A stretch of 64,000 nucleotides of DNA from Gluconobacter frateurii (lineage in GTDB: Bacteria; Pseudomonadota; Alphaproteobacteria; Acetobacterales; Acetobacteraceae). The stretch lies in NCBI RefSeq assembly GCF_002723955.1, contig NZ_BEWN01000001.1, positions 434,001 to 498,000 of the forward strand, read 5' to 3'. The notes beneath the pieces are model-generated. The model was not told where the DNA came from. It saw only the letters and a list, made by a program, of their open reading frames with translations, and did no database searches. The position numbers were made by a program, and so were the translations under genes. Of this stretch, positions 51,928 to 54,780 are shown piece by piece. Position 1 is the first letter of the stretch; each line of letters begins with the position of its first letter.

Positions 51928-52102
51928 GTGCCTTCTCAAGTGAGTGTATGATTGTCTCTGCATTCCGCCGTACAGAATCGTCTGTGTGGGATGACAGGAT
52001 GTCGGCGCAGAGCAGGGCAGGTGAGAGTGCGTTTCGCAAATCATGGCGAAATGCACTGGATTCGTTCGATTGAGACGGTGTTAGAGTCGGTTTTTGGCTC
52101 AT
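51893..52102 (-). CDS. Orphan mini-protein resembling a histidine-kinase DHp helix pair
   Basis: A 69-residue protein from the ATG at 52102 (GGAAG about eight bases upstream; the frame extends 18 codons further). After a Ser/Gln-rich start it reads FRHDLRNALSPALLCADIL, which matches the H-box of HisKA-type sensor kinases (phospho-acceptor His at position 20 in a HDLRN context), then a second amphipathic helix (RRNAETIIHSLEKALSLL). There is no ATP-binding domain, sensor or membrane helix, and no such domain nearby. It could be a phosphotransfer, dimerisation or inhibitor module of a two-component system. It lies between the glyoxalase and rpmH and overlaps the former. It may also be a decayed kinase fragment. 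Confidence 0.55.
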   Translation of the reverse strand: MSQKPTLTPSQSNESSAFRHDLRNALSPALLCADILSSHTDDSVRRNAETIIHSLEKALSLLKTSASSQ

Positions 52103-52128
52103 ATCCTCAGCTTCCTGATCGTCCGGCA

Positions 52129-52157
52129 TTGACAGGCGGAGACCCGGTGAGTACAAG
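52129..52157 (+). promoter_or_regulatory. rpmH: Promoter of rpmH-rnpA
   Basis: A consensus TTGACA (52129-52134) is followed after exactly 17 bases by TACAAG (52152-52157). A 9-bp perfect inverted repeat GAGACCCGG/CCGGGTCTC (52139-52147 and 52159-52167) brackets the -10, and a second, overlapping 8-bp pair CCCGGTGA/TCACCGGG (52143-52150 and 52170-52177) shares its left arm. The repeats could be operators or alternative hairpins at the start of the message. Confidence 0.65.
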
Positions 52158-52244
52158 CCCGGGTCTCATTCACCGGGCGTTTCGTGCGCCCGATCGACGC
52201 GGATGTCCAGAGGGGCGTCTGCATGGTTTTTAAGGATCGATGTC

Positions 52245-52379
52245 ATGAAGCGCACGTATCAACCCTCCAAGCTGGTTCGTAAGCGTCGTCACGGTTTCCG
52301 TGCACGTACTGCTACAGTCGGTGGCCGCCGCGTGCTGGCAAACCGCCGCACGAAGGGTCGCAAGAAGCTCTCCGCCTGA
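52245..52379 (+). CDS. rpmH: 50S ribosomal protein L34
   Basis: Very small, highly basic 50S protein, 44 residues, too short for a default gene track. The translation begins [18 protein letters not shown] and ends with [10 protein letters not shown], the universal L34 pattern including [13 protein letters not shown] lies nine bases before the ATG. Its stop codon TGA overlaps the CTG proposed as the rnpA start. It opens the rpmH-rnpA-yidD-yidC-engB-argB block. A consensus promoter lies about 90 bases upstream. Confidence 0.98.
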
Positions 52380-52723
52380 GCGCGAACCATACAGCTGGCC
52401 GCCTGAAAAAGCGGCCGCAGTTTCTGCGTGTTGCCGGGAAGGGGCGTAAAGTCGCTACCCCGGGAATGGTTGTGCAGATCCTGCAGGATGATACCCAGCC
52501 TGAAAGCCGTGTCGGCTTTACCGTCACGAAAAAGGTTGGGAATTCAGTCATCCGAAATCGCACCAGACGCCGCCTCCGTGAGGTGCTGCGTCTTGTTGCA
52601 CGTGAGGATGGTCTCCCAACAGGGGACTTTGTCCTGATTGGTCGAGACGGTACCCGCCGACGCGATTTTTCTCTGCTTCAGGAAGATCTCCGGAAAGCCC
52701 TCCGTAAGGGTACGGAAAAATGA
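52376..52723 (+). CDS. rnpA: Ribonuclease P protein component
   Basis: Protein cofactor of RNase P, which trims tRNA 5' ends. The conserved family sequence starts at [16 protein letters not shown] and continues through [20 protein letters not shown], the RNA-binding signature. The first ATG in frame (52466) would remove the whole N-terminal strand-helix region. Upstream of that the frame contains no ATG, GTG, TTG or ATN codon back to a stop inside rpmH; only CTG at 52376 (overlapping the rpmH TGA as CTGA) or CTG at 52403 remain. I give 52376 (115 residues). The stop overlaps the yidD ATG (ATGA). Confidence 0.9.
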
Positions 52724-52968
52724 CAGGCTTTTTTAGCAAGCCTGTCACTGTCTTCCTGCTCGCACTGATTGATTCTTACAAACTTTTCGTCAGTCCATAT
52801 CTGGGACGGAACTGCCGGTTTGAGCCGGGGTGTAGCACCTATGCTGTCATGGTGATCAAATCGCATGGCCCGTTGCGGGGCGGATGGCTGGCATGCAGGA
52901 GACTCCTGCGCTGTCATCCTTGGTCAAAAGGGGGTTGTGACCTCCCTCCTGAGCGCCATCAGCATTAA
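52720..52968 (+). CDS. yidD: Membrane protein insertion efficiency factor YidD
   Basis: Small membrane-associated protein that aids YidC-dependent insertion. The 82 residues show the family pattern: an N-terminal amphipathic helix ([19 protein letters not shown]), the cysteines in EPGCSTYAV and [13 protein letters not shown]. It is coupled to rnpA and sits 90 bases before yidC, the standard order. Confidence 0.97.
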
Positions 52969-53058
52969 AAAACGCGGCCAGCTATTGTTTTGATCGCGGT
53001 TTTCGGCCACTTGAGGCTCAGCATTCCTCCGTAGAGACGAAAGACCGGCATCCGCCCG

Positions 53059-54780
53059 ATGGAAATCAAGCGCATCATTGCGGCCACTATCCTCTCGGCC
53101 CTCATCCTGATCGGTTTCGACTATTTCATGCCGAAGCCCCATCAGGACAGTCATCCCGCTGTCACGCAGACTGCTGCGACACAGTCCCCATCAGCCCCGG
53201 CTCAGGCCGCACCCTCAGAGGCTGCTCCTGAACCTGCGGTAACGGCGCGACGTATCGCAATCACGAGCGAAGACGTGCAGGGTTCCCTGAACCTCAAGGG
53301 TGCGCTGCTTGATGATGCGGTGCTGACCAAGTATCGCGCCACACTGGCGAAGGACAGCCCGCTGGTCCGCCTGCTGGATAAGCCTGGCAGCGAGCATCCG
53401 AACTTCTTCGTTATTGGCTGGAGCAATGCTCCGGGTTCGAATGCCAAGGTGCCTGACCTGAATACGGTCTGGACCAGTGCAGACGAAGCTCTGTCTCCTG
53501 GTCATCCGGTGACGCTGAAGTGGGACAATGGCGAAGGGCTGATCTTCACAATCCAGCTGTCGGTCGATGAGCATTACATGTTCTCGGTCGTCCAGTCCGT
53601 GGAGAACCATTCCTCACAGCCGGTCGCTCTGGTTCCGTTTCAGCGTGTTCAGCGTGACTATCAGGCAGCAGAAGGGTTCTGGACGGCTCATGAAGGCCCG
53701 ATTGCCGTCATGGATGGTCGTCTGAATGACGAAACCTACAAGAATGTCCGCAAGGGTGCCGAGCACGCAGACCATACGTTCTGGGCCAAGGGTGGGACTG
53801 GTGGCTGGGGCGGTATCAGCGACAAGTACTGGCTGACGGCGGTAGCACCAGACGCTAATGCCGCTGTCACGGCCAGCTTTGCCTATGCGCCTGGCAATCC
53901 CGGTTCGTATCGGATTGGCTTTACCTCGCAGGCTCCCCAGCAGATCATGCCGAACGGCACGATCACGCAGACGAGCCATCTTTTTGCCGGTGCGAAGGTT
54001 CCGAGCCTGCTTCAGTCTTATAGCAGCAACCTGCACATTGCGGATTTTGACAAGGCAATTGATTTCGGTTGGTTCAGCTTCCTGACGCGCCCGATCCTGT
54101 ATCTGTTGCACTGGCTGTATCTGCATCTTGGTAACTTTGGTCTGGCGCTGATGGCGCTGACGTTGATCGTCAAGATCGTGCTCTTCCCGCTGGCGTCCAA
54201 GGCTGCCACGTCTTCCGCGCGGATGCGTCTGCTGGCTCCGAAGATCAAGGAGATCCGCGAGAAGAACAAAGACGACCCGATGGTGATGAACCAGAAGGTC
54301 ATGGCCCTGTATCGGGAAGAGGGCGTGAACCCGGCCAGTGGGTGCCTGCCGGTTCTGATCCAGGCTCCAATTTTCTTCTGCCTGTACAAAATGCTGAACA
54401 TCAGCATTGACGAGCGTCATGCACCGTTCTTCGGCTGGATCCGTGATCTGTCCGTCCCAGACCCGACGAACATCTTCAATCTGTTTGGTCTGATCCCGTT
54501 TGATCCAACGGTTTATTTCTCCTTTCTGCATATCAGTGTCTGGGGAGCCGCTTTGGGTGTTACGTTCTGGCTGCTGCAGCGTCAGACGATGGTCAGCATG
54601 GACCCGGCTCAGGCGCGCATCATGCAGTTCATGCCGCTGGTGTATGTGTTTGTGATGTCCGGGTTCCCGGCCAGTCTTCTGGTCTATTACACCTGGAACA
54701 ACCTGCTGACGTTCGCTCAGCAGACCTTTATCCAGAGCCGCGCCAAGCTGCCGGTTCCAGTTGCCAAGAACGGACGCTGA
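53059..54780 (+). CDS. yidC: Membrane protein insertase YidC
   Basis: Inner-membrane insertase that folds and inserts membrane proteins with or without Sec. The 573 residues have an N-terminal helix, a Pro/Ala linker (about 30-60), a large periplasmic beta-sandwich domain (about 65-320), and the conserved five-helix core beginning LLHWLYLHLGNFGLALMAL, with the cytoplasmic hairpin MVMNQKVMALYREEGVNPA and the hydrophilic-groove region in helix 2. The C-terminus is basic (RAKLPVPVAKNGR). Confidence 0.98.
   Translation: MEIKRIIAATILSALILIGFDYFMPKPHQDSHPAVTQTAATQSPSAPAQAAPSEAAPEPAVTARRIAITSEDVQGSLNLKGALLDDAVLTKYRATLAKDSPLVRLLDKPGSEHPNFFVIGWSNAPGSNAKVPDLNTVWTSADEALSPGHPVTLKWDNGEGLIFTIQLSVDEHYMFSVVQSVENHSSQPVALVPFQRVQRDYQAAEGFWTAHEGPIAVMDGRLNDETYKNVRKGAEHADHTFWAKGGTGGWGGISDKYWLTAVAPDANAAVTASFAYAPGNPGSYRIGFTSQAPQQIMPNGTITQTSHLFAGAKVPSLLQSYSSNLHIADFDKAIDFGWFSFLTRPILYLLHWLYLHLGNFGLALMALTLIVKIVLFPLASKAATSSARMRLLAPKIKEIREKNKDDPMVMNQKVMALYREEGVNPASGCLPVLIQAPIFFCLYKMLNISIDERHAPFFGWIRDLSVPDPTNIFNLFGLIPFDPTVYFSFLHISVWGAALGVTFWLLQRQTMVSMDPAQARIMQFMPLVYVFVMSGFPASLLVYYTWNNLLTFAQQTFIQSRAKLPVPVAKNGR

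Follow-up and report, generated by a model that had tools for sequence, protein, structure and literature searches.

The analyzed window, a 64,000 nt stretch of a Gluconobacter frateurii contig, harbors rpmH, rnpA, and yidD in a head-to-tail arrangement with overlapping ends, and rnpA is read in a different frame than rpmH. The features of the junction, numbered by position in the window, are as follows.

52245–52379, + strand: rpmH, ribosomal protein L34, 44 aa, with an ATG start and a TGA stop at 52377–52379
52280–52282, + strand: TAA in the rnpA frame, inside rpmH
52376–52378, + strand: CTG, candidate (inferred) rnpA start, nine codons ahead of LKKR and overlapping the rpmH TGA as CTGA
52376–52720, + strand: rnpA coding sequence with an inferred start, 115 codons from the CTG, with a TGA stop at 52721–52723
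52397–52416, + strand: hairpin at the rnpA start (GGCCGC, 8 nt, GCGGCC) with compensatory changes in relatives
52403–52405, + strand: second CTG, the L codon of LKKRPQFL, an alternative but disfavored start
52466–52468, + strand: first in-frame ATG of rnpA, rejected as the start
52720–52968, + strand: yidD, the ATG of which overlaps the rnpA TGA (ATGA)

The rpmH product matches Pfam family PF00468 (E = 3.3e-22), and RnpA matches PF00825 (E = 2.8e-25; 88.9 bits against a cut-off of 22.3) over positions 5–107 of the 109-position profile. The gene rnpA is the sole PF00825 gene of its genome and has rpmH adjoining it upstream. No second RNase P protein was found for PF00825 or PF08745, the two families searched in the genome, the latter being the family of the protein-only HARP enzyme. 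At the junction (52000–53100), no known RNA family was detected, and an antisense match to Atu_C7 within yidD was sub-threshold (21.1 bits against a gathering score of 45).

A first-pass annotation of this DNA had claimed that the rnpA frame is open from a stop inside rpmH and that no ATG, GTG, TTG, or ATN codon precedes the conserved LKKRPQFL segment, two CTG codons being present instead. Reading of the frame bears out both statements. The frame is open from the TAA at 52280–52282 onward, past the rpmH stop, and contains no ATG, GTG, TTG, ATT, ATC, or ATA between this TAA and the L of LKKRPQFL (hereafter codon 0, with codons ahead of it numbered negatively). The two CTG codons are the one in the CTGA overlap at 52376 and codon 0 itself at 52403. 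A further near-cognate codon in the rnpA frame, ACG at 52304 within rpmH, was absent from the earlier list. The first in-frame ATG, at 52466, sits 21 codons into the conserved core.

Start codons between rpmH and rnpA in related genomes

The lack of a standard start codon extends across the genus. When the rnpA frame was scored from 12 nt before the end of the stop codon to the codon preceding LKKR, ATG, GTG, and TTG were absent from all 25 distinct junctions, which represent 26 genomes (33 loci, of which 8 duplicates were dropped; the set includes sequences matching Neokomagataea). In a comparison sample that was not random, being composed of the best-scoring matches listed and hand-picked loci, with most genera or families represented by one or a few loci, the same rule found no standard start in 2 of 130 junctions from other Acetobacteraceae (149 entered; 16 duplicates, 1 with an anchor problem, and 2 without rpmH dropped), 2 of 79 from other Alphaproteobacteria (87 entered; 8 without rpmH dropped), and 18 of 33 from Sphingomonadaceae. 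The Sphingomonadaceae were removed from the Alphaproteobacteria group after their differing pattern was noticed, and the survey of the class was ranked by likeness to a Sphingomonas RnpA, with distant orders under-represented.

The same absence was found in 14 of 14 named Gluconobacter and Neokomagataea records. The named records listed as closest to the window are Gluconobacter, with G. cerinus ranking first at 91%, in a comparison that may pass over very near records. Because the absence extends to all 26 genomes of the genus, one assembly error is no explanation, and a sequencing error was rejected. A narrower rule, limited to the 15 codons before the core, gave 25/25 junctions for the genus against 22/133 for other genera of the family. 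Extending the scan back across rpmH and a further 45 nt upstream still yielded no standard start in 23 of the 25 genus junctions, and the remaining two (L006 and L016) have only a GTG inside rpmH. The start codons of the 130 other Acetobacteraceae junctions comprise 88 ATG, 24 GTG, and 16 TTG, with none in 2. Weak starts are common in Acetobacteraceae, and Gluconobacter is the extreme.

Several other loci of the family have unusual junctions. In L178, from an Acetobacteraceae genome of ~2 Mb, all three standard start codons are missing from the rnpA frame between rpmH and the core. An ATT four codons ahead of the core is common to L178 and L180, which belong to one genus, and is possibly an independent near-cognate case. 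The Acetobacteraceae locus L144 is similar to Gluconobacter, with CTG over the rpmH TGA at −9 and no ATG, GTG, or TTG before codon 0, which is TTG. The start of rpmH itself is ATG in Gluconobacter and GTG in many other Acetobacteraceae loci (L027–L056).

In Sphingomonadaceae, a start codon (TTG in one case, otherwise ATG) stands exactly 7 nt ahead of rpmH in 38 of 49 distinct junctions, within an rnpA frame that is open through rpmH. Of the 32 junctions lacking a later start, 31 have this −7 start, as do 7 of the 17 that possess a later one, with related species counted without correction for kinship, and elsewhere it was found in 1 of 154 Acetobacteraceae junctions and 3 of 78 from other Alphaproteobacteria. 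The Sphingomonadaceae loci (L235–L263, including named Sphingomonas, L264, and L354–L383) were assigned by likeness to named Sphingomonas records and by the family tag of the collection. The −7 ATG sits in a purine-rich stretch, which could serve as the Shine-Dalgarno sequence of rpmH. An alphaproteobacterial locus outside this family, L343, has no start after rpmH and has a GTG 7 nt before rpmH in an open rnpA frame, and is possibly nested as well.

In Thermus, rpmH lies inside rnpA with the two AUGs one base apart (AUGGAUG), an arrangement called the only described case in its report (PMC9841429). As described there, Thermus likewise has an unusual rnpA start that is tied to rpmH. Its layout is excluded in the window by the TAA at 52280, and nesting of this type was not found in the genus, given the absence of any start up to 45 nt before rpmH in 23/25 junctions and the GTG inside rpmH in the other 2, whereas the Sphingomonadaceae resemble Thermus. 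The −7 starts suggest that the gene-within-gene layout of Thermus has a parallel among Alphaproteobacteria in the Sphingomonadaceae.

Candidate start codons and competing readings

One reading is that a short RnpA is made from ATG 52466, and ATG does occur at this codon in all 26 genus genomes. However, the 21 codons ahead of it are conserved as protein. Codons 0 to 20 differ by 49 synonymous versus 20 non-synonymous single-step codon pairs (20 distinct sequences), where the expectation from all possible single changes is 54 synonymous to 135 non-synonymous, and the Pfam match begins 23 residues earlier than this ATG. Since the preceding codons evolve as protein, ATG 52466 was rejected as the start, as the first-pass annotation had done on the grounds of the lost N-terminal core, and a short RnpA is extremely improbable.

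Ahead of the core, CTG is found nine codons before LKKR in 12 of the 26 genomes. Eight of these have the CTG over the rpmH TGA, and in four (Neokomagataea type) rpmH ends in TAA and the CTG lies 13–15 nt beyond it. In three of these four (L023–L025), CTG at −9 is the sole codon among CTG, ATT, ATC, ATA, and ACG from the upstream stop to the core, and codon 0 is TTA. The other 14 genomes have ATC instead of CTG, at −9 in 8 and at −13 in 6, and they form one well-supported clade (100/100) in a midpoint-rooted tree whose root is unsure, as the long outgroup row L063 was placed among Gluconobacter. A named G. oxydans record is likewise of the ATC type. Directly upstream of the ATC, a 1-nt indel differs among species of this clade (GACCCAGATCGG versus GACCCGATCGG). 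The frame above the ATC is therefore not maintained, which argues that the start common to the clade would be at or after the ATC. Altogether, a near-cognate CTG or ATC stands nine codons before LKKR in 20/26 genomes and thirteen codons before it in 6/26, and relative to the rpmH stop these candidate starts are placed at −1, +13, +14, or +15 nt in 26/26 genomes.

These alignments make it likely that Gluconobacter rnpA is translated from a near-cognate codon immediately after rpmH, and CTG 52376 is the best reading of the putative start for the species of the window. The first-pass annotation placed the start at CTG by reinitiation at the rpmH stop. Its central idea, a near-cognate start following rpmH, holds up, but its emphasis on the CTGA overlap was mistaken. 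The overlap is in the rnpA frame in 15/26 genomes; among the 14 ATC-type genomes, the 1-nt indel takes it out of that frame in 7, and it is absent in the 4 Neokomagataea-type genomes, where rpmH ends in TAA. What the genus has in common is instead a candidate near-cognate codon shortly after rpmH.

Several points count against the reading. None of the candidate codons could be the start in all 26 genomes, and the CTG of the CTGA overlap is partly dictated by an Ala codon of rpmH followed by TGA. Furthermore, CUG initiation in E. coli is 0.86% of that from AUG, according to a study that also puts CUG at 0.024% of bacterial initiation codons (PMC11497404). A transcriptome study of G. oxydans 621H gives a CTG start for 22 of 973 analyzed transcripts, apparently as annotated, and does not mention rnpA in its main text (PMC5756330).

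The variation of candidates by species (CTG, ATC, ATT, and ACG) may also point to some other non-standard codon or mechanism, such as initiation at ACG, at a codon less similar to AUG, or at several weak starts jointly. However, ACG is not conserved (ACA in L019), and CTG at −9 or ATC at −9 or −13 covers all 26 genomes, which makes such an explanation quite unlikely.

Initiation at codon 0 (CTG 52403 in the window and TTG in many relatives) would yield fMet-KKRPQFL. Codon 0 is TTG in 12 of the 25 distinct genus junctions, which leaves a TTG start possible there, and ATG is found at the same place in four Acetobacteraceae loci (L035, L043, L046, and L049), all of which have another ATG four codons earlier. 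On the other hand, codon 0 is TTA or CTT in L014, L020, L021, and L023–L025, and residues just ahead of it are kept, with R at −1 in 26/26 genus genomes and P at −3 in 20/26; P and R (or K) at about the same places are usual in sister genera with an upstream ATG. Codon 0 also lies in the loop of the covarying hairpin described below, and a start there is, on balance, unlikely. Substitutions in codons −8 to −1 favor coding in the ATC −9 group alone (6 synonymous versus 2 non-synonymous pairs; 8 junctions, 5 distinct). The counts are small, with 9 versus 15 and fast evolution in the 8 CTG-overlap junctions and 2 versus 3 in both the ATC −13 group and the Neokomagataea type, and coding by these codons in the other groups is not proven.

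Alternatively, ribosomes might slip by −1 or +1 close to the 3′ end of rpmH and produce an L34-RnpA fusion with no reinitiation, and the rnpA frame of the window is indeed open from 52283 through the rpmH stop. In other species, however, a TAA lies five codons before the stop-overlapping CTG (L002, L012, L015, and L022), rnpA is in frame with rpmH behind the rpmH TAA (L023–L025), or another stop intervenes (L026), and no slip geometry is common to the species. Because the frame relation of rnpA to rpmH varies by species, the fusion was rejected as a common mechanism, and we consider it very improbable. A start inside or before rpmH was rejected on the basis of the TAA at 52280 in the window and of the stops near the junction in L002, L012, L015, and L022.

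A conserved hairpin at the rnpA start

In the hairpin, GGCCGC (52397–52402) pairs with GCGGCC (52411–52416), which places the codon at 52403 in the loop. Covariation was assessed on 23 distinct sequences from the genus and from sister genera around Bombella and Saccharibacter, with kinship ignored. Of the cells in this set, 90.6% pair, versus 25–53% with slid partners, and three of the six pairs have changes on both sides. None of 500 shuffles reached the paired percentage and covariation score of the hairpin, whereas its numbers of altered pairs and of different pair types were reached by 23 and 48 of 500 shuffles, respectively, so that on these two measures, of five in total, the hairpin exceeds the shuffles only moderately. 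RNAalifold alone predicts the inner five pairs. Relative to synonymous recoding, the mean z was −2.5 for 17 distinct genus sequences versus −0.27 for 157 others, again with kinship ignored. With the codon usage of the window genes, the z values of the genus hairpin were weaker (−3.3 to +0.1), and the hairpin is weak in L026 and L022 by both recodings (z of −0.64 and −1.29 by synonymous recoding).

Since the hairpin is also present in sister genera with an ATG, it is not linked to start-codon loss. It may conceal codon 0. A function as a fixed-distance downstream enhancer of initiation is unsupported, as the spacing to the presumed start varies, being 21 nt with a −9 start, 33 nt with a −13 start, and 9 nt with the −5 ATG of the sister genera. 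A terminator function was also rejected; none was predicted there on the + strand, and one terminator-like site lies on the − strand at 52428–52416.

Probable coupling of rnpA to rpmH and known near-cognate starts

Among four sites of the window (rpmH, CTG 52376, CTG 52403, and ATG 52466), pairing with the anti-Shine-Dalgarno sequence is strongest for rpmH (−5.9 kcal/mol) and weak for CTG 52376 (−2.2 kcal/mol), on a scale that discriminates poorly, as random positions have a mean of −3.0 and a tenth percentile of −6.1 kcal/mol and the rpmH value is not exceptional. Across the genus, rpmH pairing is −5.4 to −5.9 kcal/mol, and that of the putative rnpA starts is −1.5 to −2.9 kcal/mol in 23/26 genomes and −5.0 kcal/mol in three of Neokomagataea type.

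Termination-reinitiation occurs at overlapping stop-start codons such as AUGA. The putative rnpA start resembles such pairs in that it overlaps or closely follows the upstream stop and has weak Shine-Dalgarno pairing, and it differs from them in having a near-cognate codon instead of AUG or GUG and in that the coupling is deduced from sequence. Given that every candidate start falls between −1 and +15 nt of the rpmH stop, the natural and likely source of rnpA translation is ribosomes that come off rpmH and reinitiate. In the window, ribosomes finishing rpmH would reinitiate at CTG 52376 with fMet-tRNA at a low efficiency, since the Shine-Dalgarno pairing is weak, and the outcome would be far less RnpA than L34. 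Such a ratio would suit an enzyme, of which cells require many fewer copies than of a ribosomal protein. A link between RNase P output and L34 output, which the first-pass annotation had also drawn, is plausible. IF3 counteracts initiation at near-cognate codons, and one may speculate, by analogy with infC and sigR, that RnpA would also follow the level of IF3.

The gene infC starts at a near-cognate codon, AUU in E. coli and AUC in Streptomyces, and is autoregulated by IF3, which represses the near-cognate starts of both infC and Streptomyces sigR (PMC5472188). In the genus, an ATA preceded by CAGGAG is present at infC in all 25 loci that could be read among 26 (L183 from the window's own genome and L384–L408), and infC probably starts at this ATA, although an ATG five codons downstream leaves the start unproven. 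Both infC and rnpA would be translation-related genes kept on a near-cognate start across species. In contrast to infC, which has a clear Shine-Dalgarno motif in the genus, rnpA has weak pairing in 23/26 genomes and lies directly behind rpmH. For Streptomyces sigR, the same source reports a GTC start that was experimentally shown (PMC5472188). As portrayed there, the non-standard start keeps the sigR product scarce compared with its operon partner, which would be the likeness to rnpA, and IF3 sensitivity of rnpA is proposed here by analogy. However, the non-standard start of sigR is on the upstream gene of the pair, and the start of rnpA is a prediction from sequence. The rnpA case would be one of near-cognate initiation at a single-copy RNase P gene, probably coupled to the termination of rpmH.

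Among the matches listed in a search of open-licence PubMed Central (titles and the start of abstracts), there was no paper on this rnpA start or on the nested rpmH-rnpA of Sphingomonas. Gene finders usually accept only ATG, GTG, and TTG, and rnpA may consequently be truncated or mis-started in annotations.

A wider scenario can be put forward tentatively, and we regard it as doubtful in its entirety. In it, the single-copy rnpA would have shifted throughout the genus to near-cognate starts, CUG and then, in one clade, AUC, at which ribosomes that have just finished rpmH begin. The conserved hairpin would mask the competing codon, and the supply of RNase P would be throttled relative to L34 and tied to the stringency of initiation through IF3. 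Together with the nesting in Sphingomonadaceae, the rpmH-rnpA junction might then be a recurrent site at which standard initiation is replaced in order to fix a large protein ratio.

Gluconobacter is a genus of industrial bacteria. If the near-cognate start of rnpA is true, it would be a rare instance of a probably essential gene that uses such a start genus-wide. The species of the genus would also constitute natural replicates (CTG versus ATC, with and without stop overlap), which would make the use of CUG and AUC by ribosomes after termination directly testable.
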